Below are positions 4,011 to 22,296 of a stretch of DNA of 64,000 nt, piece by piece; position 1 is the first letter of the stretch; each line of letters begins with the position of its first letter. The notes under the pieces were generated by a model. It was not told the origin of the DNA and searched no databases. It saw only the letters and a program-made list of their open reading frames with translations. The DNA comes from Collinsella sp. An307. Its GTDB lineage: Bacteria > Actinomycetota > Coriobacteriia > Coriobacteriales > Coriobacteriaceae. The stretch covers positions 62,001 through 126,000 of the forward strand of contig NZ_NFIP01000008.1 of NCBI RefSeq assembly GCF_002161805.1, in the 5' to 3' direction. Position numbers and translations under genes: made by a program.

Positions 4011-4070
4011 AGCGCGATGCAGATGACAGGGTCGTGCGTTGCGTCAGGCTATCAAGAAAGGGGGAATCCA

Positions 4071-4292: not shown

Positions 4293-4303
4293 CCTCTTTT
4301 TTT
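4281..4303 (+). terminator. Small hairpin with T tract at the end of feoA2
   Basis: GAGGT at 4281-4285 pairs with ACCTC at 4292-4296 across the stop codon and is followed by seven T. The stem is only 5 bp, so it may act as a partial terminator between feoA and feoB. Confidence 0.5.
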
Positions 4304-4312
4304 ACCGGTAGA

Positions 4313-4358
4313 GTTAGGCGAGTCTAACAAATGATACCGCACGAGAAGCATTTGTTAG
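4313..4358. promoter_or_regulatory. Inverted-repeat operator region before feoB
   Basis: Two overlapping inverted repeats are present: GTTAG-N6-CTAAC at 4313-4328, and CTAACAAATG (4324-4333) with its exact inverse CATTTGTTAG (4349-4358). A related half, GTTAGCCGAGGTAAA, follows. The shared GTTAG half-site suggests binding of a dimeric regulator, likely iron linked given the genes on both sides. Confidence 0.45.
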
Positions 4359-4439
4359 CCGAGGTAAATATCTTTCGCCCATATTCGGCGTCGCTTGACT
4401 CAGAACAACTTGCGTTTCAAAGCCAAGAAAGAAGGATAC

Positions 4440-6668
4440 ATGGCAGACACAGAGCTTCGCGTCGCATTGGCGGGAAACCCCAACTGCGGCAAGACGACCT
4501 TATTCAACCTCATCACCGGCCAGAACGGCTACGTGGGCAACTGGCCGGGCGTGACGGTGGAGAAGAAGCAGGCGCGTCTTACGAGCGATAAGAACGTCAT
4601 CGTGACAGACCTCCCCGGCATCTACTCGCTCTCGCCCTACAGCCCCGAGGAGCGCGTCAGCCGCGACTACCTCATGAGTGGTGAGCCCGACGTGGTGATT
4701 CAGCTGCTGGACGCCACCAACCTCGAGCGCAACCTTTACCTCGCACTGCAGGTCATCGAGTGCGGACTGCCGGTCGTAGTGGCACTCAACATGGCCGACC
4801 TGGTGGAGAAGAACGGCGACAGGATTGACACTGCCGCGCTCTCGCGCCGCCTCGGCTGCCCGGTCGTTATGGTTTCTGCCCTCAAGAACCAGGGCATCGA
4901 CAAACTCTTTGCCGAGGTGAAAAAGGCAGCCTCCCAGAAGGGCAAGGTGGCCGAGCATGCATTCGACTCCGCCATCGAAGACGTTCTCGAGAAGATCGAG
5001 GCGCTCCTGCCTGCATCGGTGCCGGCGGAGAAGCGCCGCTACTTTGCGGTCAAGCTCTTTGAGCGCGATGCGGACGCACAGAAGAACATCAACCTCACAA
5101 AGGACGCTGCGGCGAGCGTCGAGGCGCTCATCTCTCAGTGCGAAAGCGACTGCGACGACGACGCGGAATCCATCATCACCGGAGAGCGCTACGCTGTGAT
5201 TGCGCACATCATGGACGCCTGCGTGAAGAAGGCGCCGGCGCGCATGTCGACCTCCGAGAAGATCGACCGCATCGTTACGAACCGCATCCTGGGCCTTCCC
5301 ATCTTCATCCTCATCATGTGGGCGGTCTACAGCATTGCCACGAGCGCCGACGCATTCGGCACCGCGGGCACCGACTGGGTGAACGACAACCTCTTTGGTG
5401 AGGGCTTCGAGCTCTTTGGCATGGCGTTCCCGTCAATCCCCGGCGCTATCGAGGGCTGGCTCGTGTCGATCGGGGCGAGTGATCTTGTCCAGAGCCTCGT
5501 ACTCGACGGCGTCGTGGCGGGCGTGGGCGCGGTCCTCGGCTTTATCCCGCAGATGTTCGTGCTGTTCGTGTTGCTGTCGTTCCTCGAGGACTGCGGGTAC
5601 ATGGCGCGCGTGGCCTTTGTGATGGACCGCGTGTTTCGCCGCTTCGGCCTGTCGGGCAAGTCGTTCATCCCCATGCTCGTCGCCACGGGCTGCGGCGTGC
5701 CGGGCGTGCTCGCTACCAAGACCATCGAGAACGAGAAGGACCGCCGCATGACGGTCATGACCACCACGTTCATCCCCTGCGGCGCCAAGCTCCCCATCAT
5801 CGCGCTGCTCATGGGCGCCCTTGTGGGCGACGCGGAGGCCAGCTGGATCAGCCCGCTCTTCTACTTCCTGGGCGTCATCGCCGTTATCGTCTCGGGCATC
5901 ATGCTCAAGAAGACGAGGCTCTTTGCTGGGCGCCCCACGCCGTTTGTGATGGAGCTGCCGAGCTATCACTTCCCGTCCATTCGCTCGTGGGCGCTGCACG
6001 TGTGGGAGCGCGTCTCTGCCTACATCAAGAAGGCCTTCACGATTATCTTCGCCTCCACGGTCGTGGTGTGGTTCCTCACAAACTTTGGCGTGTTCGAGGG
6101 CGGCTTTGGGTTCCTTCCCGCTATGGAGGGCATCCCCGAGGAGTTCACCGACTACTCTGCGCTCGCTATGCTCGGTAGCGCCATCGCACCCATCTTTGCC
6201 CCGCTCGGCTTTGATTCGTGGCAGGCGACGGCCATGTCCATCACCGGACTTGTTGCCAAGGAGAACGTTGTTGCCACGGCAAGCTCGCTTCTGCACATCG
6301 CCGACGGCACCGAGACCGACCCGAACCTCTGGGCTGCCTTTGCCGGCATGTTCCCCACGGTAGGCGCTATTGCCGCGTTCGGTGCGTTCAACCTGCTGTG
6401 CGCGCCGTGCTTTGCCGCGATGGGCACCATCCGCGCCCAGATGAACTCGGCCAAGTGGACCGCGATTGCGATCGGCTACGAGTGCGGCTTCGCGTGGGTC
6501 GTGGGGTTGATGATCAACCAGTTCTACCTCGCGGCAACCGGTGTGTTCAGCTTCTGGACCATCGTGGCGGTGGCGTGCGCGGCCGCGATGCTCTTCCAGC
6601 TCTTCCGTCCCATGCCCCGCTACGCATGGACCGACGAGCACGATACCGCGGTGGCTGCCACCGCGTAG
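4440..6668 (+). CDS. feoB: Ferrous iron transport protein B
   Basis: 742 residues, normal length. The N-terminal GTPase domain shows G1 GNPNCGKTTLFN (about residues 12-23), the G3 motif DLPGIYSLSPYSPEE and G4 NMAD. The membrane half has two Gate repeats; the GYMARVAFVMDR and SFIPMLVATGCGVPG signatures are present, as is the later TTFIPCGAKLPI. FeoB moves Fe2+ into the cell with GTP hydrolysis. The ATG at 4440 follows AAGAAGGATAC; an upstream TTG at 4395 has no ribosome site. It is followed by the small Cys-rich gene at 6763, which commonly accompanies feoB. Confidence 0.97.
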   Translation: MADTELRVALAGNPNCGKTTLFNLITGQNGYVGNWPGVTVEKKQARLTSDKNVIVTDLPGIYSLSPYSPEERVSRDYLMSGEPDVVIQLLDATNLERNLYLALQVIECGLPVVVALNMADLVEKNGDRIDTAALSRRLGCPVVMVSALKNQGIDKLFAEVKKAASQKGKVAEHAFDSAIEDVLEKIEALLPASVPAEKRRYFAVKLFERDADAQKNINLTKDAAASVEALISQCESDCDDDAESIITGERYAVIAHIMDACVKKAPARMSTSEKIDRIVTNRILGLPIFILIMWAVYSIATSADAFGTAGTDWVNDNLFGEGFELFGMAFPSIPGAIEGWLVSIGASDLVQSLVLDGVVAGVGAVLGFIPQMFVLFVLLSFLEDCGYMARVAFVMDRVFRRFGLSGKSFIPMLVATGCGVPGVLATKTIENEKDRRMTVMTTTFIPCGAKLPIIALLMGALVGDAEASWISPLFYFLGVIAVIVSGIMLKKTRLFAGRPTPFVMELPSYHFPSIRSWALHVWERVSAYIKKAFTIIFASTVVVWFLTNFGVFEGGFGFLPAMEGIPEEFTDYSALAMLGSAIAPIFAPLGFDSWQATAMSITGLVAKENVVATASSLLHIADGTETDPNLWAAFAGMFPTVGAIAAFGAFNLLCAPCFAAMGTIRAQMNSAKWTAIAIGYECGFAWVVGLMINQFYLAATGVFSFWTIVAVACAAAMLFQLFRPMPRYAWTDEHDTAVAATA

Positions 6669-7092: not shown

Positions 7093-7158
7093 AAACGTGT
7101 GAGAGAGTAAGTCAATCTGCGTTATGCCGGGGATCCGGCTGCGGGCGAAAGGATATCC

Positions 7159-8499
7159 ATGGACCAGCAGCAGTACATAGACTTCGTTCTGCGCACTGTC
7201 GAGGAGCGCGACATTCGCTTCATCCGCCTATGGTTCTGCGACGTGCTCGGGCGTCTCAAGAGCTTCGCGATTGCGCCGGAGGATCTTGAGGCGGCCTTTG
7301 AGGAGGGCATTGGCTTCGACGGCTCTGCCATCGAGGGCTTCACGCCCAAAGAGGAGGCCGATATGCTGGCCTTCCCGGACCCCTCGACCTTCCAGGTGCT
7401 TCCGTGGCGCCCCAAGCACGACGGCGCGGCGCGCATGTTCTGCGACGTCTGCACCCCCGACCGCAAGCCCTTTGCGGGTGACCCGCGCGAGGCCCTGCGC
7501 CGCATGTTCTATCGTGCCGAGGCACGCGGCTACCTGCTGAACGTGGGCGCCGAGCTCGAGTATTACTACTTCCCCAACGACCATACGCCCGAGCCGCTTG
7601 ACGACGTGGGATACTTTGACCTCACGCCGGACGACTCGGCGCGCGACCTGCGCCGCGAGACGGTTCTTATGCTCGAGAAGATGAGTATCCCGGTCGAGTA
7701 CACCTTCCACTCGTCGGGCCGCTCGCAGCATGGGATCTCGCTGCGCCACGCCGAGGCGCTCACGGCGTCCGACGCCATCACCACGGCAAAGCACGTCATC
7801 CGTCTCGAGGCCTATCAGGCGGGCATCCACGCGTCGTTCATGCCCAAGCCCATCAAGGGCGAGGCGGCTAGCGCCATGATGCTCCACCAGTCGCTTTTCG
7901 ACCACAACGGCAACAACGTTTTCTGGGGCCCGGACGACCCGGTCTACCACCTGTCGCCCACCGCAAAGAGCTACATGGCAGGCGTGCTTGCCCACGCGCG
8001 CGAGATGGCCGCCATTACCAACCCCACGGTCAACTCCTACAAGCGCATCCTCGGCGACGAGGGTCCCACGCCCAAGGCCGCTACCTGGGGCTTGCGCAAC
8101 CGCGCCGCAATGATCCGCGTCCCCATCTACAAGCCGGACAAGGAGCTCTCCACGCGCATCGAGCTGCGCTCGCCCGATCCCATGGCAAACCCGTACCTCG
8201 TGAACGCCGTGACGCTCGCGGCGGGTCTCGACGGTATCGAGCGCGGCCTCACGCTGCCGGCGGAGAGCACGGCCGACGTGCTCAACATGTCGGCCGATGA
8301 GCTCGAGTCCGCGGGCATCGCATCGCTGCCGCGCAACCTCGACGAGGCGCTCGACATCTTTGAGGCGTCCGACTTTATGAAAGACGCGCTCGGCGAGCAC
8401 ATCCACACGTTCTTCCTCGCAAAGAAGCGCGACGAGTGGAACAAGTTCGCCTCGACGGTGACCGAGTGGGAGGTCAGGCACTACCTGGCAAACTCGTAA
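7159..8499 (+). CDS. glnA: Glutamine synthetase, type I
   Basis: 446 residues, the length of the GSI-alpha form. Visible signatures are the N-terminal FDGSAIEGF, the ELEYYYF active-site stretch near residue 135, the ammonium/ATP motif NPTVNSYKRI near residue 287 and RNRAAMIRVP. It makes glutamine from glutamate, ammonia and ATP in the cytosol as a dodecamer. The adenylylation loop with NLYDLPPEE found in GSI-beta is absent, so control is probably transcriptional or by feedback. The ATG follows GAAAGGATATCC. A hairpin terminator follows, and a GlnR-like regulator gene comes next. Confidence 0.97.
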   Translation: MDQQQYIDFVLRTVEERDIRFIRLWFCDVLGRLKSFAIAPEDLEAAFEEGIGFDGSAIEGFTPKEEADMLAFPDPSTFQVLPWRPKHDGAARMFCDVCTPDRKPFAGDPREALRRMFYRAEARGYLLNVGAELEYYYFPNDHTPEPLDDVGYFDLTPDDSARDLRRETVLMLEKMSIPVEYTFHSSGRSQHGISLRHAEALTASDAITTAKHVIRLEAYQAGIHASFMPKPIKGEAASAMMLHQSLFDHNGNNVFWGPDDPVYHLSPTAKSYMAGVLAHAREMAAITNPTVNSYKRILGDEGPTPKAATWGLRNRAAMIRVPIYKPDKELSTRIELRSPDPMANPYLVNAVTLAAGLDGIERGLTLPAESTADVLNMSADELESAGIASLPRNLDEALDIFEASDFMKDALGEHIHTFFLAKKRDEWNKFASTVTEWEVRHYLANS

Positions 8500-8508
8500 G
8501 GTAGCGTT

Positions 8509-8541
8509 GCCGAGGGACGCGCTCGCGAGCCCTCGGCGTTA
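8509..8541 (+). terminator. Terminator after glnA
   Basis: GCCGAGGG at 8509-8516 pairs with CCCTCGGC at 8530-8537, followed by GTTAT. The stem is strong, the T tract short. Confidence 0.55.
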
Positions 8542-8608
8542 TACAAAAGCCCGGCTGCGGGCGCGCAGGCACCCGCGGTAGTTTGATCGTTTTTCTAGGA
8601 GGTGGAGC

Positions 8609-9271
8609 ATGGCGGAGAACAGCATCCTTTTCATGGCGCGCACGACGCGCTACAACGATTTTGCCCGCACGCTCGCCGAAACTGCCGGCTACGAGGTTGC
8701 GCTCGCCACGCCCGATTCGCCCAACGCCGTGCACGATTTCTGTTTGCTGCTGCTCGATGCCGACGGTGTGCGCAACGACCGTATCGAGCAGATCTCCAAG
8801 TGGCTCGAGGACCGCGGCGGCATCCCCATGCTCGTCATCGCCGATGACGAGGCGCTCGGCGCGCTGCATCTGCCGGCTCACTCGCACTCCGACTTTGTGT
8901 GCCCCACGGCCACGCCGACCGAGCTCGCGGTGCGCGTGCGGCGTCTGGTGGGTCAGGAGGAATCGTTTGCCGCAGACGACGTGCTGCGCGTGGATGACAT
9001 GGTCATCAACCTCGCGACCTATCAGGTCACTATCGACGATGAGCCGGTGGACCTCACGCTCATGGAGTACTCGTTGCTCTCGTTTTTGGCGACGCATCCC
9101 AACCGCGCCTACAGCCGCGAGGTGCTGCTGCACCGCGTGTGGGGCTTCGAGTACTGCGGCGGCACGCGCACGGTCGACGTGCACATCCGTCGTATCCGCT
9201 CTAAGGTGGGCCCGCAGATTGCGGCGCACATCACGACGGTTCGCGGCGTGGGATACCTCTTTAAGGATTGA
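8609..9271 (+). CDS. OmpR-family regulator with atypical receiver, GlnR-like
   Basis: 220 residues. The first 120 form a receiver-like domain with LLLLDADG, but the full acidic pocket and conserved Lys of normal receivers are not evident. The C-terminal 100 residues are an OmpR winged helix: LTLMEYSLLSFLATHPNRAY, VLLHRVWGFEYCGG, TRTVDVHIRRIRSKVG, then VRGVGYLF. This resembles the orphan nitrogen regulator GlnR of Actinomycetota, whose receiver is also atypical, and the gene lies directly after glnA. No histidine kinase is adjacent. The assignment as GlnR is inference; it could be another orphan OmpR protein. The ATG follows CTAGGAGGTGGAGC. Confidence 0.8.
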   Translation: MAENSILFMARTTRYNDFARTLAETAGYEVALATPDSPNAVHDFCLLLLDADGVRNDRIEQISKWLEDRGGIPMLVIADDEALGALHLPAHSHSDFVCPTATPTELAVRVRRLVGQEESFAADDVLRVDDMVINLATYQVTIDDEPVDLTLMEYSLLSFLATHPNRAYSREVLLHRVWGFEYCGGTRTVDVHIRRIRSKVGPQIAAHITTVRGVGYLFKD

Positions 9272-9314
9272 CGCCACATCCCAAAACAGGGCAGAAACCA
9301 TTCTTAAGAAGCAG

Positions 9315-9333
9315 TGAAACCGGGGGGGTTTCA
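9315..9333 (+). terminator. Hairpin after the GlnR-like gene
   Basis: TGAAACC pairs with GGTTTCA around a GGGGG loop. No long T run follows; it may end transcription from upstream. Confidence 0.4.
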
Positions 9334-9362
9334 TTCACGCTGCCGGTGAGATGGGGTACAAC
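9334..9362 (+). promoter_or_regulatory. Candidate promoter of the HtrA gene
   Basis: TTCACG at 9334-9339, a 17 nt spacer and TACAAC at 9357-9362, about 38 nt before the start codon. Both hexamers are moderate matches to the housekeeping consensus. Confidence 0.4.
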
Positions 9363-9399
9363 GTAGCAGAACTTCAATTCTAGGAAAGGAAGCACTGCT

Positions 9400-10830
9400 A
9401 TGGATAACGAGCACACGCCTGAGCGCCCCGAGTGGGGGAGCAACGCCGGCGGTCCCACGCCACCGCGCATGGCAGTTGAACCGACTCCGCAGAACCGCGA
9501 CGATGGGCCGTCCGAGACGACGCAGATGCCGGGTTCCGGCACACAGGAAGGCACGGGCGCGACCGAGCACATCCCCTTTGTCCCCTCGACCGCGACCGAT
9601 ACCCGCACCGTGGTTAAGGTCAAGACCAAGAAGCTCCCGGTCTTTTTGGCCTCGCTCGGCGGCCTGGTGGTCGGCGCGGTGCTGGTAATCGCGCTTGTTA
9701 TGGTGGGCGCGTTCCGCATCTCCGACACCGACGTCTCGGCTGAGGTCCCTGTGACTCAGACGATCGACATCGACCCCGAGGACACCACGCTTGCCGAGGC
9801 GGTCGCCGCCAAGTGCCTGCCGTCGGTCGTGTCCATCTCCACCGAGACCCAGGAGGGCGGCGGCGTAGGCTCCGGCGCCATTATCGATACGGACGGCAAC
9901 ATCCTCACTAACTATCATGTTATCGAGGGCGCTACGGCCATCTCGGTCACCGTCAACGACGAGACGAGCTACGAGGCCGAGGTCGTGGGCACCGACGAGT
10001 CGAGCGACCTTGCCGTCATCCGTCTGGTGGACGCCGACACCTCGACGCTCACGCCGATCGAGATCGGTGACTCTGACGATCTTTCCGTGGGCGAGTGGGT
10101 TATGGCCATCGGTAGCCCGTTTGGCAACGAGCAGTCTGTCTCCACGGGCATCGTGAGCGCGCTTTACCGCTCCACGGCCATGCAGTCTTCTACCGGCACT
10201 TCGATTTACGCCAACATGATCCAGACCGACGCGGCTATCAACCCGGGCAACTCTGGCGGCGCACTTGTCAACGCTGAGGGCCAGCTCATCGGTATCAACT
10301 CGATTATCGAGAGTTACTCCGGCTCGAGCTCGGGCGTGGGCTTTGCGATCCCTGTCAATTACGCGATGCAGATTGCCGAGCAGATCATCGCCGGTGAGAC
10401 GCCTGCGCACCCGTACCTGGGCGTGAGCGTGACCTCGGTGAACCCCTTCACCGCACGTCGTGAGAACCTCTCGGTCTCCGAGGGCGCGCTTGTGGCCGAG
10501 GTGAACGAGGGAACGCCGGCGGCTGAGGCGGGCCTTCAGGTGAACGACATCGTCACGGCGGTCGACGGCGATGCGGTGACCTCGGCAGACGGTCTCATCA
10601 TCGCGCTGCGCGAGCACGCTGTGGGCGACACGGTCACCCTCACGGTGGTTCGTGGTAACGACACCATGGACGTGGATGTGACGCTCGGTTCTGATGCCGA
10701 CCTGCAGACCGAGCAGCAGGACACCTCTTCGGGCAACGGTTCGTCCATGACCGAGGAAGAGTTCCTGCAGTACCTCGAGGAGCTCATGGGCGGTCGCTAC
10801 GGCGGTGGCCAGGGCGGCCAGATCGGATAG
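9400..10830 (+). CDS. HtrA/DegP-type membrane-anchored serine protease with PDZ domain
   Basis: 476 residues. A Pro- and Thr-rich cytosolic part of about 78 residues precedes one membrane helix (about 81-103). The trypsin-like domain has the triad His173 (NYHVIEG), Asp203 (SSDLAVI) and Ser285 (NPGNSGGALV). A PDZ domain follows at about 330-430, then a Gln/Ser-rich stretch and a C-terminal Gly-rich tail. It would act outside the membrane on misfolded or signalling proteins. The long N-terminal cytosolic part is a usual feature of actinobacterial HtrA. The ATG follows AGGAAAGGAAGCACTGCT. A very long hairpin terminator follows. Confidence 0.95.
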   Translation: MDNEHTPERPEWGSNAGGPTPPRMAVEPTPQNRDDGPSETTQMPGSGTQEGTGATEHIPFVPSTATDTRTVVKVKTKKLPVFLASLGGLVVGAVLVIALVMVGAFRISDTDVSAEVPVTQTIDIDPEDTTLAEAVAAKCLPSVVSISTETQEGGGVGSGAIIDTDGNILTNYHVIEGATAISVTVNDETSYEAEVVGTDESSDLAVIRLVDADTSTLTPIEIGDSDDLSVGEWVMAIGSPFGNEQSVSTGIVSALYRSTAMQSSTGTSIYANMIQTDAAINPGNSGGALVNAEGQLIGINSIIESYSGSSSGVGFAIPVNYAMQIAEQIIAGETPAHPYLGVSVTSVNPFTARRENLSVSEGALVAEVNEGTPAAEAGLQVNDIVTAVDGDAVTSADGLIIALREHAVGDTVTLTVVRGNDTMDVDVTLGSDADLQTEQQDTSSGNGSSMTEEEFLQYLEELMGGRYGGGQGGQIG

Positions 10831-10852
10831 CGACATGTAAAACTGCTAAGGG

Positions 10853-10941
10853 GCCCTCCCGGGTTCCTCAGAGGCGTGGTCCTCGCCGCTTCGCGGCTGC
10901 GGGAAACGCCTCGGAGGAACACGGGAGGGCTCTTTGCGTTT
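10853..10941 (+). terminator. Long-stem terminator after the HtrA gene
   Basis: A 24-nt arm starting GCCCTCCCGGGTTCCTC (10853-10876) pairs with 10907-10930 at 22 of 24 positions, with an inner GCCGC-TTC-GCGGC hairpin in the loop and TCTTTGCGTTT after it. Confidence 0.8.
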
Positions 10942-10997
10942 ATTTCGGTTGTCAATCTTGTGAGTGGGTCTTCTTGTTTCTGAGATTTGCTCCGTAA

Positions 10998-11192
10998 TGG
11001 TCAAAGATCCCCGCAGAATAATAAAGAACCCCCTTGAGCGAGGAAATCAGGGTCACTTTGAGACTTGGATCCGAATGGATCGCAACGTTTGCGCAGGATT
11101 CGAAACTCCGGTGCGATAGGACTTACTTGGGTGGCCGGTCAAAAACCCTTGAGGTAGGGGGTCGTTTATTATTCCGCGGGGGTCTTTGACCA
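10998..11192. repeat. Long inverted-repeat element, type B copy 1
   Basis: A 37-nt left arm (10998-11034, starting TGGTCAAAGATCCCCGCAG) and its inverted copy (11156-11192) match at 33 of 37 positions and enclose 121 nt without a gene. A second copy with almost identical arms is at 45319-45536. It lies between the HtrA terminator and the dCMP deaminase gene. Confidence 0.85.
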
Positions 11193-11237
11193 CGGAGTCG
11201 TTTGCACGCCCATCTGGTATAGGCCGCATGAAGCGGG

Positions 11238-11243
11238 TAGAAT
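11238..11243 (+). promoter_or_regulatory. Possible -10 element for the dCMP deaminase gene
   Basis: TAGAAT in the context GCGGGTAGAATGG, 30 nt before the ATG. The -35 position is not convincing. Confidence 0.35.
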
Positions 11244-11272
11244 GGCCCTACCTAAACGACGAGGAGGTCGCC

Positions 11273-11743
11273 ATGCCGGGCAAGCGTCAGGATGTCATCA
11301 GCTGGGACGAGTTCTTCATGCGCGCCGCCGTCGCGGCGAGCCTACGCTCGAAGGACCCCAACACGCAGGTGGGCGCCTGCATCGCTGATACCAACCATCG
11401 CATCTTGTCCGTCGGCTACAACGGCACGCCCTCGGCGCTCAATGACGACGACTTCCCATGGGGCACGGCGGACGATCCGCTGCACGATAAGCATAACTAC
11501 GTCATCCACGCAGAGGCCAACGCCATTCTCAACTACCGCGGGTCGCTCAAGGACATGGCGGGTGCCACCGTCTACGTGACGCTCTTCCCGTGCCACGAGT
11601 GCGCCAAGACCCTTGTCCAAGCGGGCATCGGCGAGGTCGTCTATCTCGACGACAAGTACGCGGGCACTGAGGACAACCTCATCTCCAAGAACATCCTCGA
11701 GCGCTGCGGCGTCCGCTACCGCCAGATCGAGCTGTCCGAATAG
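11273..11743 (+). CDS. Deoxycytidylate (dCMP) deaminase, ComEB type
   Basis: 156 residues. The zinc site is complete: HAEANAI supplies His and the catalytic Glu, PCHECAK supplies two Cys. The protein converts dCMP to dUMP, feeding thymidylate synthesis. Similar proteins are called ComEB in Bacillus because of gene position, but no com genes are near here, so a nucleotide role is more likely. The ATG at 11273 is chosen over the earlier in-frame TTG-type codons because GAGGAGGTCGCC precedes it directly and the family starts near this Met. Confidence 0.92.
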   Translation: MPGKRQDVISWDEFFMRAAVAASLRSKDPNTQVGACIADTNHRILSVGYNGTPSALNDDDFPWGTADDPLHDKHNYVIHAEANAILNYRGSLKDMAGATVYVTLFPCHECAKTLVQAGIGEVVYLDDKYAGTEDNLISKNILERCGVRYRQIELSE

Positions 11744-12113
11744 ATTGCTTCGGTATTGGACGGTCCTCGGACTATCGTCAACGCTATAGGTTCTGTCGTG
11801 AAAAATGACCGTTCGACCGTATTGCTTGATGCGGGCGGGTAACGATGAAGACGTACCAGCGAAGCCCGTTGGTCTTAACAGGGGCGGGCGGCGCAGGTTC
11901 TAGTGACTTGAGGGCCCGGTTGCCGCCGGTCCCTCCTTATCTCCCTTCGCTATTCGTTTCGAGCTTATGCCCCCTCCATAAGTCGATTGAGATTCTTCCT
12001 ATGCTCGCGATGAACGTGAGGGCTTGCAGGACTTCAAGAACAACGTTCATAGGCTTTGCCTCCTCGGAAAGAGAAAGCGTCGCCCGCATACGGACTCCGC
12101 TGGCCGTTCTGTG
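11744..12113. other. Non-coding stretch before the low-GC insert
   Basis: About 370 nt with no convincing gene. It holds a GC hairpin GAGGGCCCGG...CCGGTCCCTC near 11909-11935 without a T tract, and two copies of ATTGCTT near 11745 and 11821. The short reading frames crossing it lack ribosome sites and resemble nothing known to me. Confidence 0.5.
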
Positions 12114-12174
12114 TTAGCAAAGCACGCATCCTGACTATAATCAGGATAAGTTCTACCTTGAAGGTAGAACTTAT
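12114..12174 (+). promoter_or_regulatory. Promoter with overlapping palindromic operator before the DUF2971 gene
   Basis: TTAGCA (12114-12119), a 16 nt spacer and a perfect TATAAT (12136-12141). The predicted transcript start falls in a 14-bp perfect inverted repeat: ATAAGTTCTACCTT (12146-12159), one G, then its inverse to 12174. This arrangement is typical of repressor binding at the start site. Confidence 0.6.
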
Positions 12175-12211
12175 TGATCCCTCCAGGAAACATGAACTCG
12201 TTGGGGTGATT

Positions 12212-13045
12212 ATGCAGGATGAGTTATATGTCCAGCAATTGAATCGGATATTTGAAAGGACGCGTCCCCATAGATCGTATAAGCATTATACAAAGGTGGA
12301 TCGTGCGGTGAAGATTCTGGAATCCGAAACGCTCATCGCAAGCGATGGTTCAACATGGAACGATCCAATAGATGCCCGTCGCTTCAATGCTCCCTATGAT
12401 TCTTGGAAACACTTCGGTATTTCTTTTTCGTGGCTCTCCGTCGAAAACGTCGCGATGTGGATGCTCTACGGAGGGCACGACGTTGATGGCGCAATGATTG
12501 ATTTCCCTCAATCGTTACCGCAGTTTGTGCAGGATAACATTGACACGATGGAATTCGGACACTTCCGCGACGGCGATTTCGTACCCATCGAAACACGCCT
12601 TCCAGGTCCTGATGTTGAAGTGCGGCTTGTCGATGTTGCCTATATCGTCGATGGCTCCATGGGCGAGAAGCCCGACTATGCAGCACTTCGTATCCGCAAC
12701 ATCCCTCGGTTTGAGATTTTGAAAGAGACGTTATCAAGCGACAGCGCTTCGCTTTTTTGCGCCAAGTCTGCCCCGTGGTTTTACGAGACGGAGTCGAGGC
12801 TTGTCGTAAGTGCGAAGAAATCTCTCTTCAGGTATCCGCATGAGATCACTCATGCGCGCCTGAGCTTTCCCGGTCTATCGGAATTCGTCCGGGGCAGACT
12901 CGTGCGCTCTCCGCTTGTTTCCGAGGGCCAGTCGATTGCTTCTGGTTTTAAGAGAAGCAGTCTGAGTGGGGAAGTTTCTTGGGATTTGTGTGCTGGTTGC
13001 AGGCATCGTATGGAAGTGGGAGTTCAAAATGGCCAATCAGAGTGA
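12212..13045 (+). CDS. DUF2971-like protein of unknown function
   Basis: 277 residues, no membrane segment. The features resemble DUF2971: an N-terminal YKHYTKVDRAVKILESETL, then WNDPIDARRF, and FGISFSWLSVENVAMWMLYG with the conserved SFS...MW pattern. The family has no settled biochemical role; members turn up in accessory and defence-rich regions. The ATG at 12212 is used since the promoter (TATAAT at 12136) rules out earlier codons; GGGG lies upstream. Base composition from here to 14.8 kb is clearly lower in GC than the neighbours, a sign of transfer. It overlaps the next gene by 17 nt. Confidence 0.65.
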   Translation: MQDELYVQQLNRIFERTRPHRSYKHYTKVDRAVKILESETLIASDGSTWNDPIDARRFNAPYDSWKHFGISFSWLSVENVAMWMLYGGHDVDGAMIDFPQSLPQFVQDNIDTMEFGHFRDGDFVPIETRLPGPDVEVRLVDVAYIVDGSMGEKPDYAALRIRNIPRFEILKETLSSDSASLFCAKSAPWFYETESRLVVSAKKSLFRYPHEITHARLSFPGLSEFVRGRLVRSPLVSEGQSIASGFKRSSLSGEVSWDLCAGCRHRMEVGVQNGQSE

Positions 13046-14276
13046 AATCAACCAGGGCGAGCGCGAGCAGGACGAGAAGTGCCAGCCTGATTGTCAAGAG
13101 CGGGACGAAATGCCAGTCGAGGGCTTGGGCGAGAAGGATGGAGCGGAGGATGAGGTGCCTGATGAAACGTTGGATTCGGGTGGAGATGGGAAAGCGACCG
13201 AGCAACCTGCTTCGCCTTCCGAAGATGGCTCTTTGGCAAAAAAGCCGGTGAACGGGCGCATGCCCTCATGGGTTAAGCCTATTGTGGTTGTGCTGCTCGT
13301 GATTCTTGCTGCTGCAATCGGCTTGTTTGCGTGGCGTGAATCTCGTTTTGCCGAGGTGCCGGATGTTATAGGTGATTCTCCCGCTGAGTCGACCAGCGAG
13401 ATAGAGGCTATCTCCGACAAATGGGAGGTTGCGTATGCAGCGGGGGATGATCTCTCTGGTTTAAGTGATGAGGACATCGATGCACGATATGAGGTTGTTG
13501 GGGTTGACCCTGCTGTCGGGGAGCGGCTTTCGAAAGATGAGAGCAACACCATAACCATCACGCTTGAGAAAAACGCAGCAACCCGCGCGGCAGAGCGCCT
13601 CGCCATTATCCAAGGCGAGATATCCGGCTCTTTGGAAAATGGCTATGCAGATGAGACCTATGTCGATAATGGTGACGTTGTCGTGTTTAAAGCCGTGCAC
13701 GCTGTCCCAGTGTTTGTCGACGGTACATATCGTGTGTCTCCTTCGGTTGGAAAAGATCAACAGCCGGAAATATATGCAACATGGGAGGATAGTCAGGATG
13801 GGTATAAGCAGTTGGCCGAGAGCCTTCAATCAAACGTTGTGTCGCTTATTTATGGTAGCGATGGTTATCTAATGGGCATCTTTGTCGGCTTGTATTCAGA
13901 TACAACTGATGGAGCAATTGAACGAGCTGCTCAAATTGCTGCGGAGGCACGTGACGCGCATATCGCAAAAGTTACGGACAATCTTTCTGTCGTTCTCGAT
14001 GGATTTGTTGGTGTCTATAGCGGATTTGATGGGTGCGAATATGTGGTCGAGAACGGACAGGTGACGTTCTATGTTTATGGCAATGGAATGATTGCCAGCA
14101 ATGGTGAAAATATATCTAACAGTAGCGCACGGATTGAACAGGAACTCCGCAGTGATGCATCTTCATTTGCCTATTATCTCCAAACGCCAGTAACCATCAA
14201 GTTCATAAAGAACGGCGCTTTGTTTGCAACGGCTACATCTGAGCCTGAGAGCATGGTATTCACACCGGCGGAGTAG
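13029..14276 (+). CDS. Membrane-anchored protein with one PASTA-like domain
   Basis: 415 residues. The first 75 or so are charged and Glu/Asp-rich, followed by a membrane helix near residues 82-104 (PIVVVLLVILAAAIGLFAW). The outside part opens with a PASTA-like unit: VPDVIGDSPAE at the start and VGVDPAVGERLSKDE then TITITLE at the end. The remaining 230 residues match nothing I recognise. PASTA domains bind muropeptides or beta-lactams in cell-wall kinases and PBPs; no kinase domain is present here. The ATG follows GGAAGTGGGAG and overlaps the DUF2971 gene, so the two are probably co-translated. Confidence 0.6.
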   Translation: MANQSEINQGEREQDEKCQPDCQERDEMPVEGLGEKDGAEDEVPDETLDSGGDGKATEQPASPSEDGSLAKKPVNGRMPSWVKPIVVVLLVILAAAIGLFAWRESRFAEVPDVIGDSPAESTSEIEAISDKWEVAYAAGDDLSGLSDEDIDARYEVVGVDPAVGERLSKDESNTITITLEKNAATRAAERLAIIQGEISGSLENGYADETYVDNGDVVVFKAVHAVPVFVDGTYRVSPSVGKDQQPEIYATWEDSQDGYKQLAESLQSNVVSLIYGSDGYLMGIFVGLYSDTTDGAIERAAQIAAEARDAHIAKVTDNLSVVLDGFVGVYSGFDGCEYVVENGQVTFYVYGNGMIASNGENISNSSARIEQELRSDASSFAYYLQTPVTIKFIKNGALFATATSEPESMVFTPAE

Positions 14277-14318
14277 TCGTCAGCGACAGGCTTGAGAGGC
14301 GAGGGAAGGGTCAATGCC

Positions 14319-14801
14319 ATGACAAACGATAGTGATGCAAAGGCTAAAAACAAATGGAAGTCAATCATCGTCATTGCCGTCATTGCGTTGCTGGCTACAT
14401 TTTTCATCCCCATGGAACATTGGAGCTGCAAAATCGTATCAGGGCGTTATGTGAGCGAGGCGAGCATTATTGATCGTTCAGATGATGCTATTGCCGTGCG
14501 CCTTTACAACATGACTTCTGGAGACGACAGAATCGAAACCAATACGTTTGTGGTGCTTGAGGGCAACATTCCCCAAGATGCCCACATTGGTCAAGATATC
14601 CGCATCGGTTACAGCTTTGATGGTCTTTACGACAATCCCGACCAAATGGTGCAGGTTGCATACAGAGAGAAGGGCAGCTTGTTTACCGGTTTCATCCTTC
14701 CACTCGTACCGTTCTTTGGGTCGAGTGGTACTAGTGATGATTTACAGGTTGTTGATATTCAATCAGACGGTAGCGTGTTGACGTATAACATGGCTAAGTA
14801 G
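14319..14801 (+). CDS. Small membrane-anchored protein of unknown function
   Basis: 160 residues. A basic N-terminus precedes one membrane helix (about residues 14-34), and a second short hydrophobic stretch (GFILPLVPFFG) lies near the C-terminus. The rest looks like a beta-rich domain outside the membrane. Not recognised as a known family. The ATG at 14319 follows GAGGGAAGGGTCAATGCC and lies 42 nt after the PASTA-like gene, forming the end of the low-GC three-gene unit. Codon use matches the two genes before it and not the Rnf genes after it. Confidence 0.55.
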   Translation: MTNDSDAKAKNKWKSIIVIAVIALLATFFIPMEHWSCKIVSGRYVSEASIIDRSDDAIAVRLYNMTSGDDRIETNTFVVLEGNIPQDAHIGQDIRIGYSFDGLYDNPDQMVQVAYREKGSLFTGFILPLVPFFGSSGTSDDLQVVDIQSDGSVLTYNMAK

Positions 14802-14929
14802 ATTGATATTAAGGGCATTTTTTATCTGGCGGTATCATCCTTGCTCAATCATATTGGCGATAAAAATGTTGGGCAAATTCCCCCGCTGTTGGTTGGAGGT
14901 CAAGATTGCCGCCAGACCCCTCTTCCACG

Positions 14930-14953
14930 CATTATTCTCTAAATAGAATAATG
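14930..14953. promoter_or_regulatory. AT-rich hairpin or operator upstream of rnfC
   Basis: CATTATTCT (14930-14938) and AGAATAATG (14945-14953) form a perfect 9-bp inverted repeat with a 6-nt centre. It is 40 nt before the -35 of the rnfC promoter, a fitting place for a regulator site; it could also be a hairpin ending upstream transcription. Confidence 0.4.
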
Positions 14954-14991
14954 AGGGCCGCATTGTGCGCGCCGCGACCCGCATTCTCGTG

Positions 14992-15020
14992 TTCAAAATG
15001 TGAAGGTATGCCGTTACAAT
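14992..15020 (+). promoter_or_regulatory. Candidate promoter of the rnf operon
   Basis: TTCAAA at 14992-14997, a 17 nt spacer and TACAAT at 15015-15020. A leader of about 75 nt follows before the rnfC start, with a CTGCCG...CGGCAG hairpin near 15053-15076 close to the ribosome site. Confidence 0.5.
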
Positions 15021-15100
15021 AGAGTGCATGCATGTGTAGACACCGTTCTATCTGCCGGGAGAGCCTGCTTTCGGCAGAGCATGAGGGGGAAGGGGAGTTG

Positions 15101-16438
15101 ATGTTCTCTCTGCACAAGACGTTAGGCGGTGTGCATCCGCCGCAGTGCAAGGACACGCGGGACTGCCCCGTCACGTCGATCGAGCCTCCCAAGCAGGTGC
15201 GCATCCCGCTGAACATGCACATCGGGGCGCCTGCTAAGCCGGTGGTGAACGTGGGCGACCACGTCTACATCGGTACGCTCATCGGCGATGGCGAAGGTCT
15301 CTGCGCGCCCGTGCACGCCACGGTTTCGGGCACGGTCACCTCGGTAGCCGAGGAGACGCTGCCCACGGGCCAGCACGCCCCGGTCGTCCAGATCGAGTCG
15401 GACGGCAAGATGGAGAACGACCCGGCGCTCGAGAAGCCCACGTACTCCAATAAGGACGAGTTCATCGAGTGCGTCCGCAAGTCGGGCGTCGTGGGCCTTG
15501 GCGGCGCTTCGTTCCCGTCGTGGTTCAAGATGAAGTGCCCGCCGGGCAAGAAGTTCGAGTTCCTTGTCGTAAACGCCATGGAGTGCGAGCCGTTCATCAC
15601 GAGCGACTATCGCCAGATGATGGAGCATGCCGAGCGTATCATCGACGGCGTGACCCGCATTGCCCGCGCGCTCGACATCCCCGCCGCCGTCATTGGCGTG
15701 GAGGACAACAAGCCCGAGGCGGTCGACAAGCTCAACGCGACCATCAAGGAAAAGGGCGTGGGTGACCTCGTCGAGGTGCTCATGGTCCCCACGCGCTACC
15801 CCATGGGTGGCGAGAAGGTCCTCATCCAGACCACCACGGGCCGTGCGGTGCCGGCCGGCGGGCTTCCCGTCGACGCGGGCTGTCTTGTGCTGAACGTCAC
15901 CACGGTCTCGCGTATCGAGGAGTACTTCCGCTACGGTGTGCCGCTCGTGCGCAAGACCGTCACCATCGCCGGTGACTGCGTCAAGAACCCCGGCAACTAC
16001 CGTATCCCCATCGGCATGAGCGTGCACGATGTGGTGGAGGCCACGGGCGGCCTTATCAAGGAGCCGCGTAAGATCATCATGGGCGGCCCCATGATGGGTC
16101 GTACCATTACCGACATCGACTGCCCGATCCTGAAGGCCAACAACGCCATCCTCTGCCTCGAGGACAAGGCGATTCTGCCCGACGAGACGCCCTGCATTCG
16201 CTGCGGTCGCTGCGTGCGCGTGTGCCCCTTGGGCCTCATGCCCTTCCAGCTCGATGCTGCCTCTCGCAGCCATGACGTGGTGAAGCTCGACGAGTACGCC
16301 GTCATGAACTGCATGGAGTGCGGCTCCTGCGCCTACACCTGCCCGGCGCACCGTCGCATCACCGCCTCGATTCGCGAGGGCAAGGGCTTCTACCGTTCCG
16401 AGACCGCGCGTCTCACACAACCCGCGAAGGAGGCGTAA
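15101..16438 (+). CDS. rnfC: Rnf electron transport complex subunit C
   Basis: 445 residues. The N-terminus has LGGVHPPQCK; a Gly-rich NADH/FMN-binding region follows (GLGGASFPSWFKM). Near the C-terminus are two 4Fe-4S sites, CIRCGRCVRVCP and CMECGSCAYTCP. RnfC oxidises or reduces NADH at the cytosolic side of the ion-pumping ferredoxin:NAD+ oxidoreductase. The ATG at 15101 has GGGGAAGGGGAGTTG before it; an earlier ATG at 15032 would overlap the promoter region. It heads rnfC-D-G-E-A with nearly no gaps. Confidence 0.95.
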   Translation: MFSLHKTLGGVHPPQCKDTRDCPVTSIEPPKQVRIPLNMHIGAPAKPVVNVGDHVYIGTLIGDGEGLCAPVHATVSGTVTSVAEETLPTGQHAPVVQIESDGKMENDPALEKPTYSNKDEFIECVRKSGVVGLGGASFPSWFKMKCPPGKKFEFLVVNAMECEPFITSDYRQMMEHAERIIDGVTRIARALDIPAAVIGVEDNKPEAVDKLNATIKEKGVGDLVEVLMVPTRYPMGGEKVLIQTTTGRAVPAGGLPVDAGCLVLNVTTVSRIEEYFRYGVPLVRKTVTIAGDCVKNPGNYRIPIGMSVHDVVEATGGLIKEPRKIIMGGPMMGRTITDIDCPILKANNAILCLEDKAILPDETPCIRCGRCVRVCPLGLMPFQLDAASRSHDVVKLDEYAVMNCMECGSCAYTCPAHRRITASIREGKGFYRSETARLTQPAKEA

Positions 16439-16443
16439 AGCGC

Positions 16444-17376
16444 ATGAACCTCATCAACGAAGCCTCCCCGCATTTCCACGGGAAGTCGCTTACGTGGAAG
16501 ATTATGGGCGCCGTTTGCTTGGCGCTCCTGCCGACGCTCATCGCGGCGACCGCGCTCTACGGTCTCGCCGCTCCGTTGCTGGTGCTTGTCTGCATCGCCA
16601 CGGCGCTCGTGTGCGAGCACGTGTGCTGCATCATCATGCATCGCGAGTCCACCGCCGGTGATTTCTCCTGCGTCGTGACGGCGATGCTTCTCGCCTACAC
16701 GCTGCCTGCTACTTGCCCCTTCCATGTGGCGGTTGCCGGTACTGCGTTTGCGATCATCGTGGTCAAGATGCTCTTCGGCGGCATCGGCTCCAACGTGTTC
16801 AACCCCGCCGTCGCCGGCCGTATCTTCATCATGGTGGCCTTCCCGTCGGCACTTTCGAGCTACCCTGCCGTCCAGGGCACGCCGCTTGACGCCATCACCG
16901 GCGCAACTCCGCTTGCGGAGGCCGCCTCGGGCGCTCCCACCGCGAGCTACCTTGACCTTCTGCTCGGCACCCATGCGGGTGCCCTCGGCGAGACCTGCAT
17001 CATCACGCTGCTCATCGGCTACATTTTCCTCTTGGTGGTGCGCGTGGTTGACGCATGGGCGACGGTGCCCTTCATCGCCACGGTTGCGCTCATCACGGGC
17101 ATCGGCGGCGAGGACGTCGTCTATCAGGTGCTCGCCGGCGGTCTTGCGCTCGGCGCGTTCTTCATGGCGACGGACTACACCACCACGCCCATGACGCCCA
17201 AGGGTAAGATCATCTTCGGCATTGGCTGCGGTGTCATCACCGCGCTCGTGCGCCTGTTCGCCTCCGCTCCCGAGGGTGTGGCGTTCTCCATTCTCTTCAT
17301 GAACATGTTCGTTCCGCTGATCGACCGCTATACGCGGACGCAGCCGGTGGGAGGTGTCAAGAATGCCCTCGTCTAA
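16444..17376 (+). CDS. rnfD: Rnf electron transport complex subunit D
   Basis: 310 residues with about eight to ten membrane segments. The FMN-attachment motif ITGATPL is present near residue 155, where the Thr carries covalent flavin. RnfD is a core membrane subunit thought to form part of the electron and ion path. The ATG lies 5 nt after the rnfC stop. It overlaps rnfG by 14 nt, consistent with translational coupling. Confidence 0.93.
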   Translation: MNLINEASPHFHGKSLTWKIMGAVCLALLPTLIAATALYGLAAPLLVLVCIATALVCEHVCCIIMHRESTAGDFSCVVTAMLLAYTLPATCPFHVAVAGTAFAIIVVKMLFGGIGSNVFNPAVAGRIFIMVAFPSALSSYPAVQGTPLDAITGATPLAEAASGAPTASYLDLLLGTHAGALGETCIITLLIGYIFLLVVRVVDAWATVPFIATVALITGIGGEDVVYQVLAGGLALGAFFMATDYTTTPMTPKGKIIFGIGCGVITALVRLFASAPEGVAFSILFMNMFVPLIDRYTRTQPVGGVKNALV

Positions 17377-17977
17377 CGAGACTCCCCAGAAGCTCTCCTG
17401 GATCGCCCGCCATCGCAACGGCTCGCTCTACGCGTTTGTGACCGTGCTCATCGCGGCCGTGGTTTGCGGCGGCGTGCTCGGCTTCGCCTATTACCAGGGC
17501 CAGTGGGCAACCACCGCGTTCGCCGATGCGGACGCCCGCCTCGACGAGGCGCAGGGCGGCGCCCAGCGCGCGCTTCTCTTCCCGGATGCGGCGAGCTTTG
17601 AGAAGCTCGATGCGCCGGCGATCGACGGCCTCAACTCCGCCTATGTGACCGATGCGGGCGACTACGTCTTCGACGTCCAGTCCGCCGGTTACCACGGTGA
17701 TGTCGAGCTTATGATCGGCATCGCCTCAGACGGTACCGTTGCGGGTATCCAGATCGTGTCCGAGGACGAGACCGACGGCATCGGCACGAACGCCCTGACC
17801 GAGGACTACTTCGGTACGTTCACCGGCCTTGCCGCTGAGGGAACGCTGACCGTCGAGGAGCCCGGCTCGGGCGAGACACAGGTGGACGGCGTCTCTGGCG
17901 CGACCTTCACCTCCACCGCCGTTGTCACGGACCTCAACATTGCCTTCGAGGCGTACGCTCAGTTGGGAGGTAACTAA
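17363..17977 (+). CDS. rnfG: Rnf electron transport complex subunit G
   Basis: 204 residues. One N-terminal membrane helix (about residues 22-43) anchors an extracytoplasmic FMN domain. The flavin-attachment motif DGVSGATFTS is close to the C-terminus, with its Thr as the covalent site. The start at 17363 (ATG) follows GGGAGGTGTCAAG; an earlier start at 17354 would overlap that site. It overlaps rnfD and is followed by rnfE after a single base. Confidence 0.92.
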   Translation: MPSSNETPQKLSWIARHRNGSLYAFVTVLIAAVVCGGVLGFAYYQGQWATTAFADADARLDEAQGGAQRALLFPDAASFEKLDAPAIDGLNSAYVTDAGDYVFDVQSAGYHGDVELMIGIASDGTVAGIQIVSEDETDGIGTNALTEDYFGTFTGLAAEGTLTVEEPGSGETQVDGVSGATFTSTAVVTDLNIAFEAYAQLGGN

Positions 17978-17978
17978 T

Positions 17979-18617
17979 ATGGCTCTCAATGAGAACGTGG
18001 TGCGCGAGCAGAATGCGCGCATCCAAGACCTCGTGCGCACGCCGGCCTTCCTTGTGGCTGCCGGCTCGCTGACCGGCCTCGCCGCGGCGACTTCGGTTGA
18101 AAACGGTATCGCCATCGGTGCGGTGAGTGCCATCGCCATTGTGGTTATGGCCGTGCTCGCTCGTCCTCTTCGCTCGATCACGGGCGTTTGGGCGCGCATC
18201 CCGGTGCTTCTTATGGTGAGCGCCACGGTCGTTGTGCTGCTCTCGTTTGCGATGCGCATCATCGACCCGCTCATCTACCAGAACCTCGGCATCTACCTGC
18301 CGCTCGCTGCGGTGAACGGCCTGGTTGCCGCCTTCATTTACGATGACGGCTTTACGGCAGGCCCCGCCAAGTGCCCGCTCGGCACCGCCGTGTTCTGCGC
18401 AGTGTGCACGTTTGTGACGCTCGTCTTCGTGGGCTTTATCAACGGTATGTTTGCCACGGGTGCGGTCTTTGGCCTCACCATGCGTGAGCTCGCCGCCTCG
18501 CCCATCGCGATCTTCGGCACGCCCGCTGGGTCGCTTCTGGTGCTCGCGCTCGTGTGCACCTTCGTGAACTCGATCGTCGACGCCGCTCGCAAGAGCGCAG
18601 AGGGAGGTGAGCGCTAA
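17979..18617 (+). CDS. rnfE: Rnf electron transport complex subunit E
   Basis: 212 residues with six membrane segments. The family signatures QNLGIYLPLAAVNG and TMRELAASP are visible. RnfE and RnfA are homologous membrane subunits that together hold an Fe-S site in the membrane centre. The ATG at 17979 follows TTGGGAGGTAACTAAT. The stop and the rnfA start share one base (TAATG). Confidence 0.92.
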   Translation: MALNENVVREQNARIQDLVRTPAFLVAAGSLTGLAAATSVENGIAIGAVSAIAIVVMAVLARPLRSITGVWARIPVLLMVSATVVVLLSFAMRIIDPLIYQNLGIYLPLAAVNGLVAAFIYDDGFTAGPAKCPLGTAVFCAVCTFVTLVFVGFINGMFATGAVFGLTMRELAASPIAIFGTPAGSLLVLALVCTFVNSIVDAARKSAEGGER

Positions 18618-19213
18618 TGGAGTTCTTCAACGCTCTGTTCTCTGCAGCGCTCGACCAGAACATTGTCTTTGGCCAGCTTGTGGGTATGGTCATCGTTTTT
18701 CTGGCCGCTGAGCGCCCGCAGGACGCCTTCCGCTTGGGCGGCGCCCTTTGGGCCGCGTGCTTTGCTGCCGGTCTCATCGGTTGGCCGGTCTACGCTGGCA
18801 TCTTGGCGCCCTGGGGCATCGATTACATGGCACCTGTGGTCTACCTGCTGGTGAGCGCCGCGGTTATCTTCGGTGGCGGTGCTATCGCGGCCGCTTCGCG
18901 CGCACGTGCCGAGCGCTCGCGCATCTATCAGCTCTGCGCGCTGCTTGCTGTCAACGCCGCCGTGCTTGCTACCCCGCTTTCGATGGCCGCCTCTGCTGAT
19001 GTGGCGACCTTCGACGTTGCCCTCGGCATCGCCTTTGGCACGGGCATGGGCATCTTCATCGCGGTGGTTGCCTTCGCCTTCATCCATGACCGCATCGACG
19101 AGCGCCTCGTTCCGGGCGTTCTCCGCGGTGTGCCCATCTCGCTCATCACGGCGGCCCTTATGGCTCTCGCCTTCACGGGCGTTGCGGGCATCGCCGGCGG
19201 AATGTTCGTGTAA
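18617..19213 (+). CDS. rnfA: Rnf electron transport complex subunit A
   Basis: 198 residues with six membrane segments, in the RnfA position after rnfE. It starts MEFFNALFSAALDQNIVFGQ, and the ERPQDAF and later RIDERLVPGVLRGVP stretches fit the family. It pairs with RnfE in the membrane. The ATG overlaps the rnfE stop; GGGAGGTGAGCGC is the ribosome site. In related clusters rnfB follows at once; here only a short stub does. Confidence 0.92.
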   Translation: MEFFNALFSAALDQNIVFGQLVGMVIVFLAAERPQDAFRLGGALWAACFAAGLIGWPVYAGILAPWGIDYMAPVVYLLVSAAVIFGGGAIAAASRARAERSRIYQLCALLAVNAAVLATPLSMAASADVATFDVALGIAFGTGMGIFIAVVAFAFIHDRIDERLVPGVLRGVPISLITAALMALAFTGVAGIAGGMFV

Positions 19214-19226
19214 GGGGGTTGGAGCT

Positions 19227-19406
19227 ATGGGAATCTACCTCATCGCACCGCCGATCATGATCCTTGTGCTTGCGGTCATCCCCGCTGCGGTGATCGGCTT
19301 TGCTTCGCGCGCCGTCCGCCGTGCCGACTGGCTTGAGGCCAAGGCTGCAGCAGAGGCTGCTGAAGCCGCCGAGGCAACCGAGGAAACGGACGCTGCTCAG
19401 GCGTAG
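19227..19406 (+). CDS. RnfB-position stub: 59-residue membrane peptide without Fe-S sites
   Basis: 59 residues. An N-terminal membrane helix (about residues 4-26) ends in GFASRAVRRAD, followed by an Ala/Glu-rich tail; there is no cysteine at all. The helix and the GFASR sequence resemble the N-terminal anchor of RnfB. A normal RnfB continues for over 200 residues with a 4Fe-4S region and ferredoxin-like clusters that take electrons from ferredoxin. The ATG follows AAGGGGGTTGGAGCT, and a strong terminator begins 30 nt after the stop, so the gene really ends here. It is either a reduced RnfB or an unrelated small subunit. Confidence 0.7.
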   Translation: MGIYLIAPPIMILVLAVIPAAVIGFASRAVRRADWLEAKAAAEAAEAAEATEETDAAQA

Positions 19407-19435
19407 GGCGTCTTGCCAACATATGCTGCGACGAG

Positions 19436-19470
19436 GCGCGGCGTGCTCCAAGGGGCGCGCCGCGCTTTTT
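19436..19470 (+). terminator. Terminator of the rnf operon
   Basis: GCGCGGCG (19436-19443) pairs with CGCCGCGC (19458-19465), followed by TTTTT. A clear intrinsic terminator. Confidence 0.85.
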
Positions 19471-19525
19471 GCGGAACAAAACGGCGTGACACACAAGGGG
19501 ATGGGCGGACAGAGGCCTGTTGAAG

Positions 19526-19676
19526 AAAAACCTGCGAAGTAAGTGGGCTCTGCAAGGATACGAGATGACACCTCAAAGGGGCTTGTGCATCAACTGGGAA
19601 AACGCGCTCACAATGAACCGGAAGCGAGCAGTTTGGACGGTTTGTTTGAAGTAGGCCACTTACTTCACGTGTTTTT
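19526..19676. repeat. Inverted-repeat element in the rnf-ligA gap (first)
   Basis: A 24-nt arm at 19526-19549 (AAAAACCTGCGAAGTAAGTG...) matches the inverse of 19653-19676 at 20 of 24 positions, including an unbroken 11-bp core GAAGTAAGTGG. The 103 nt between show no gene. Confidence 0.55.
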
Positions 19677-19826
19677 CGGAAAGGGGACTTTGTTCTGCAC
19701 GGATCATATGAAGTGCTCCGCCCAGCTCGAGCATTTGGAGAGTCCCGAAGGTCTGGTTCGTAGGCGCATTGCCCACAGGCTTTTACGTAAGTCTCTAGCA
19801 CATCTTCAGCGTGCCCTCTTGGAAAC

Positions 19827-22296
<2,470 letters not shown>

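Follow-up and report, generated by a model that had tools for sequence, protein, structure and literature searches.

An Rnf cluster of the Coriobacteriaceae without the RnfB iron-sulfur domains and the membrane [2Fe-2S] ligands of RnfA and RnfE

The rnf locus of Collinsella sp. An307

The genome of Collinsella sp. An307 (Coriobacteriaceae) carries, on the forward strand of the 64,000-nucleotide (nt) stretch analysed here (hereafter the window), an rnf cluster whose last gene, at the place of rnfB, encodes only a short peptide. The cluster begins with five genes, rnfC (15101-16438, 445 residues), rnfD (16444-17376, 310 residues), rnfG (17363-17977, 204 residues), rnfE (17979-18617, 212 residues) and rnfA (18617-19213, 198 residues), all of them complete, with neighbours that overlap or abut. 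The sixth open reading frame (19227-19406) starts 13 nt past the rnfA stop codon and encodes 59 residues that include a single helix and no cysteine. The operon ends with an intrinsic terminator at about 19426-19474, on the same strand, made of a GC-rich hairpin (-43.9 kcal/mol, z = -4.6 against shuffled sequences) and a T run. The initial annotation of this DNA, made from its sequence alone, had already described five complete and tightly coupled genes, a cysteine-free peptide in place of RnfB and a strong terminator directly after it; the coordinates, the family matches and the hairpin bear out all three.

RnfC matches TIGR01945 (458 bits), PF01512, PF13375 and PF10531, and RnfD matches PF03116 (328 bits) and TIGR01946, so that both score above their NCBIfam cut-offs. 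RnfG, RnfE and RnfA are recognised by general families only, i.e. FMN_bind (PF04205) for RnfG, which carries an SGAT flavinylation site, and Rnf-Nqr (PF02508) for the two others, and they score well under the specific NCBIfam cut-offs. Homologues of RnfC, RnfD, RnfG, RnfE and RnfA are therefore found together in one operon, as in an Rnf cluster.

The peptide in the rnfB slot

In the canonical clusters of the class Coriobacteriia, the gene order is CDGEA-B, and rnfB lies directly 3' of rnfA wherever this is readable. The peptide therefore occupies the rnfB slot. In other orders, the canonical CDGEA-B is succeeded by genes for NusG_II and for an EetB-type protein.

A single-helix peptide of 43-69 residues is found at the same place in all 29 Coriobacteriaceae clusters that were fetched, which belong to Collinsella, Enorma and other genera (four genera in all). 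Unlike the peptide of the window, a few of those of its relatives contain cysteine. Within the genus of the window, the ratio of nonsynonymous to synonymous substitution rates (dN/dS) of the slot peptide is about 0.1-0.5, which indicates purifying selection. The initial annotation had proposed to look for the stub in relatives and had warned that a full rnfB there would point to a strain-level truncation or an assembly error. Inside the family, the short peptide is found in 29/29 clusters and a full rnfB is met only outside it, which excludes both.

The peptide of the window matches no Pfam and no NCBIfam family. It had also been read as an RnfB-like anchor. The membrane helix in the rnfB slot agrees with this, but likeness of sequence does so far less: in the comparison with the RnfB anchor helix, 8 of 300 column shuffles and 15 of 83 other membrane segments score as well, so that homology to the RnfB anchor is only suggestive. 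The argument for an anchor remnant therefore rests on position, and it is on this ground that the peptide is proposed to be what is left of the membrane anchor of RnfB.

Search for RnfB, NqrF and a second RnfA/RnfE pair

The initial annotation had considered that the iron-sulfur (Fe-S) part of RnfB might be encoded elsewhere. In the genome of the window, which is 99.5% complete, no protein scores above the cut-off of TIGR01944 (RnfB), and the matches begin at model position 95 at least, i.e. in the generic 2x[4Fe-4S] part. Among 60 relatives, only one has an RnfB above this cut-off, and this one is related at the level of the order and carries a normal cluster. Furthermore, the RnfB-specific Fe-S domain PF04060 is found in none of the 37 Coriobacteriaceae genomes sampled (23 with the rnf cluster and 14 without; their records include Collinsella tanakaei, C. 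stercoris, C. intestinalis, C. ihumii, Enorma phocaeensis and others). An RnfB with Fe-S domains is thus found neither in the operon, nor in the genome, nor in the family genomes searched, and a separately encoded RnfB was dropped. NqrF, a subunit of the Na+-translocating NADH:quinone oxidoreductase (NQR), was likewise dropped as a replacement for RnfB after a search that gave no match in this genome or in the other family genomes searched. The genome encodes a single RnfA and a single RnfE, and no second pair carrying the cysteines was found. These absences rest on draft genomes, and the 23 cluster-positive genomes agree on them.

Loss of the ligands of the membrane [2Fe-2S] cluster

In the Rnf complex of Acetobacterium woodii, four cysteines hold the [2Fe-2S] cluster AE1, namely C25 and C113 in RnfA and C25 and C108 in RnfE (PMC11889175). 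In the Rnf and Nqr families, these four are reported to be strictly conserved and indispensable to activity (PMC9588780, PMC11889175). Indeed, the A. woodii complex is inactive once the cysteines holding either B8 or AE1 are removed (PMC11889175). The RnfA and RnfE proteins of the window, which the initial annotation counted as complete, turn out to lack all four. In the alignment to 9eri_E, Cys25 and Cys108 of RnfE are replaced by Leu31 (codon 18069-18071) and Gly114 (18318-18320); in the alignment to 9eri_A, Cys25 and Cys113 of RnfA are replaced by Val25 (18689-18691) and Ala114 (18956-18958), all on the forward strand.

The four positions are occupied by residues other than cysteine in 29/29 family clusters. 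In the other clusters of the class, both RnfA cysteines are kept in 41/41 and both RnfE cysteines in 40/40, and both are also kept in the 19 non-family RnfA loci checked in a phylum-level search. The divergence of the two proteins goes beyond the ligands, as the family keeps only 5/36 (RnfE) and 5/35 (RnfA) of the residues that are invariant in the canonical members of the class. Family and canonical proteins share a mean identity of 23% for RnfE and 28% for RnfA, versus 41% and 42% between canonical groups. The family RnfA has gained two near-invariant residues, Asp13 and Gln20 (codons 13 and 20 of 18617-19213), where canonical proteins carry Val/Ile and Arg/Lys, respectively.

The retained NAD(H)-side arm

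The subunits of the other arm are kept. In RnfC, the eight cysteines that bind the two [4Fe-4S] clusters do not vary among the family members (29/29), and the domain of flavin mononucleotide (FMN)/NADH type is intact. The riboflavin ligands N123 and D249 of RnfD (A. woodii numbering) and the equivalents of T185 and Y113 of RnfG are kept in 29/29, and the flavinylation threonine of RnfD is aligned in the window protein (pairwise alignment). As far as ligand residues go, the flavin sites of RnfD and RnfG and the two [4Fe-4S] clusters of RnfC are therefore those of an Rnf complex. By the same class-level reference, the family keeps 33/39 invariant residues in RnfC, 38/46 in RnfD and 8/9 in RnfG, and its mean identities to canonical proteins (38, 44 and 27%) compare with 36, 37 and 27% between canonical groups. 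The arm predicted from these residues would consist of an FMN and two [4Fe-4S] clusters in RnfC, riboflavin and FMN in RnfD and FMN in RnfG.

RnfC, with its invariant cluster cysteines, does not resemble the cofactor-free NqrA of NQR, and RnfD matches PF03116 only and has no C-terminal NAD-binding domain (PF00175) of the kind found in NQR/RNF-like systems. Gln237 and Ala239 (A. woodii numbering), invariant in canonical RnfC, are lost family-wide (YPMGGEK in the window, versus YPQGAEK), which could bear on donor binding.

Co-occurring flavinylation genes

In the sampled family genomes, the presence of several genes goes with that of the cluster. FMN_bind is represented by exactly one protein, RnfG, in 23/23 positive genomes and is absent from the 14 negative ones. 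The EetB family (PF07456), an energy-coupling factor (ECF) subunit that exports flavin adenine dinucleotide (FAD) and is required for extracytosolic flavinylation in Listeria (PMC9973259), has the same distribution (23/23 versus 0/14). Its split is complete within one genus too (7 positive and 8 negative genomes). NusG_II, located elsewhere in the genome, is present in 23/23 versus 1/14, and ApbE in 23/23 versus 3/14. Co-occurrence was assessed by Fisher tests in which related genomes count as independent. In the genome of the window, the EetB-type gene adjoins one ApbE gene, to the immediate left of the window. It thus seems that the full machinery for flavin attachment has been retained to serve RnfG and RnfD.

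A second ApbE gene (G000:C11:218815-219642) is present in most cluster-bearing genomes, though these have no further FMN_bind protein. A conserved Fe-S protein without Pfam match (L206:3501-4436; G000:C11:88000-88936) is encoded beside an FKBP-type isomerase and near NusG_II in 9/10 loci; by eye, we take it to resemble the 2x[4Fe-4S] end of indolepyruvate oxidoreductase.

Proposed function and alternative explanations

We consider it reasonably probable that the cluster encodes a derived Rnf complex in which the ferredoxin arm, i.e. RnfB and the [2Fe-2S] cluster held by RnfA and RnfE, disappeared as a single unit and the NAD(H) arm stayed, with electrons flowing from NADH to the outside. Since RnfB and AE1 are both lost, the known ferredoxin path is closed, whichever ferredoxin-like protein docks, and we infer that ferredoxin:NAD+ oxidoreduction by the known route is impossible. 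The simplest function is probably that of a one-way conduit, in which NADH drives electrons out to an acceptor beyond the cytosol, as has been suggested for NQR/RNF-like systems of two genes (PMC8238504, PMC11334425). NADH would reduce RnfC at the cytosolic end, and electrons would travel via RnfD to the FMN bound covalently to RnfG at the outer face, then leave for the acceptor, although the reverse direction may also be possible. RnfA and RnfE, presumably redox-dead, would together with the peptide form a scaffold holding RnfG and RnfD in position, and the known Na+ step linked to AE1 would be lost. The suggestion of the initial annotation that the complex runs on a different donor fits with this route, NADH at RnfC being its likely cytosolic end.

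Several points weigh against this electron-export route. No acceptor gene was found, and there is neither another FMN_bind reductase in the genome nor a reductase linked to the cluster. The route does not account for the continued presence of RnfA and RnfE. In Nqr-type enzymes, the RnfG-type subunit takes its electrons from the RnfA/RnfE pair, and direct delivery from RnfD through RnfG to an outside acceptor is hypothetical only. Finally, the co-occurrence counts take related species as independent.

An alternative, which we regard as unlikely, is an NADH:quinone oxidoreductase in which electrons would pass from NADH through RnfC to the riboflavin of RnfD and then, as in NqrB, to a membrane quinone, RnfG being a side store. 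RnfD is indeed a member of the NqrB family with intact riboflavin ligands, but such an enzyme would leave RnfG, ApbE, EetB and NusG_II superfluous, and yet all four track the cluster. Slightly less probable still is a role of the cluster-free RnfA and RnfE as a redox-driven carrier of another ion or solute, powered by the flow from NADH through RnfC, RnfD and RnfG, which would still change the conformation of the pair, with the peptide as a structural subunit. This would account for the retention of both proteins in 29/29 clusters and for the new polar residues D13 and Q20 of RnfA, and it agrees with the switch of RnfA/RnfE between inward-open and outward-open states in normal Rnf (PMC11889175). 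However, just 5 of the 35-36 canonical invariants are left in each protein, and no substrate or coupling residue was found.

The supply of the RnfB role in trans by an Fe-S protein docking on the stub, which the initial annotation had also envisaged, is strongly disfavoured and very improbable. Generic 2x[4Fe-4S] proteins do exist in the genome, one of them near NusG_II, but all four ligands of the membrane cluster that would receive the electrons are lost, so that the usual path would be closed to electrons from a ferredoxin partner in trans; moreover, PF04060 is absent from the family genomes searched and no Fe-S gene is linked to the operon. Equally improbable is a decaying relic without present function, which the faster divergence of RnfA and RnfE than in canonical clusters and the absence of the cluster from 14/37 family genomes might suggest, but which sits badly with an intact cluster in 29/29 cases across four genera, the low dN/dS of the stub, the conserved ligands of RnfC, RnfD and RnfG and the co-inheritance of maturation genes.

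Comparison with known systems

The cluster shares with canonical Rnf (A. woodii 9eri, Clostridium tetanomorphum 7zc6, Azotobacter vinelandii 8ahx) the CDGEA order, five homologous subunits, the cofactor ligands of RnfC, RnfD and RnfG and the flavinylation machinery. It differs by having neither the Fe-S domains of RnfB, replaced by a short helix-only peptide, nor the [2Fe-2S] ligands of RnfA and RnfE. In the model proposed for the origin of NQR (nqrABCDEF), rnfB was lost from a duplicated rnfCDGEA operon, and the RnfC cofactors were lost later while the cluster of the RnfA/RnfE pair was kept (PMC4014512). The loss of rnfB and the CDGEA order are common to both, and this model also keeps the RnfB helix (PMC4014512). 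In contrast, NQR lost the RnfC cofactors (NqrA), kept the A/E cluster and gained NqrF, whereas the family has an intact RnfC and no A/E cluster, and the search for NqrF gave no match. The AE1-less Rnf is therefore a mirror image of the proposed NQR origin.

The NQR/RNF-like systems combine an NqrB/RnfD-type protein and an NAD-binding domain with a flavinylated subunit (PMC8238504, PMC11334425). They have a single arm, for which a one-way passage of electrons from NAD(P)H to an FMN domain outside the cytosol has been put forward; in the family, ligands are likewise present for one arm only, and such a flow is putative. However, the family has six genes, a separate NAD(H) subunit (RnfC), RnfA and RnfE, and no NqrF-type domain fused to RnfD. 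The Gram-positive extracellular electron transfer system (Ndh2, EetB, FmnB and PplA of Listeria) similarly uses an ApbE-type transferase and an EetB-type FAD exporter for an extracytosolic FMN protein (PMC9973259), but RnfC and RnfD would stand here instead of Ndh2 and quinone, and the FMN protein, the sole FMN_bind protein of the genome, is RnfG and not a free lipoprotein like PplA.

The survey PMC8238504 requires RnfB in its definition of Rnf, and clusters of the family type would therefore not be counted as Rnf there. No paper joining Collinsella with flavinylation was found in the collection of open-access papers searched, and none of the open-access papers mentioning both Collinsella and the Rnf complex is, in the portions available, about this cluster. 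Judged from this literature, the variant appears previously undescribed. A whole family without the RnfA/RnfE cysteines and the RnfB Fe-S domains offers a natural test of the roles of the parts of Rnf, i.e. whether RnfC, RnfD and RnfG suffice by themselves, whether the A/E cluster is required to pump ions and which purpose the RnfB helix serves. Furthermore, Collinsella and its relatives annotated with Rnf should receive no credit for energy conservation by ferredoxin:NAD+ oxidoreduction in metabolic models, and a candidate route by which common gut bacteria may transfer electrons at their surface becomes accessible to tests.

Origin and chromosomal setting

In a quick tree of RnfC and RnfD, which gave long-branch warnings, the family forms one clade (support 100) beside the canonical Coriobacteriales. 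Because of this placement, the cysteine-free, RnfB-less state would most simply be derived from an ordinary Rnf. A horizontal origin from a cysteine-free lineage is unsupported, given the one-clade tree and the 19 non-family phylum-level RnfA loci that keep both cysteines.

The block 7111-22296, which includes glnA, an OmpR-type regulator, HtrA, a dCMP deaminase, rnf and ligA (glnA and ligA identified by eye), is mostly conserved where the cluster is present; the rnf cluster is therefore at a fixed chromosomal place. ligA is kept in 26/29 loci and HtrA in 25/29, and in the 29 family loci the conserved neighbours are housekeeping genes only, with no linked partner gene. Control of rnf by a riboswitch was dropped, as Rfam gave no match in the window or in four relative loci. 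A promoter-like site 5' of rnfC (14992-15020, forward strand) is a consensus match only. Two proteins without Pfam match are encoded directly 5' of rnf (12966-14801); at least one of their genes has a low GC content at third positions, and both are possibly recent insertions. Genes for ferrous iron transport, FeoA and FeoB, lie at 4017-6665, about 8.4 kb upstream of rnfC.

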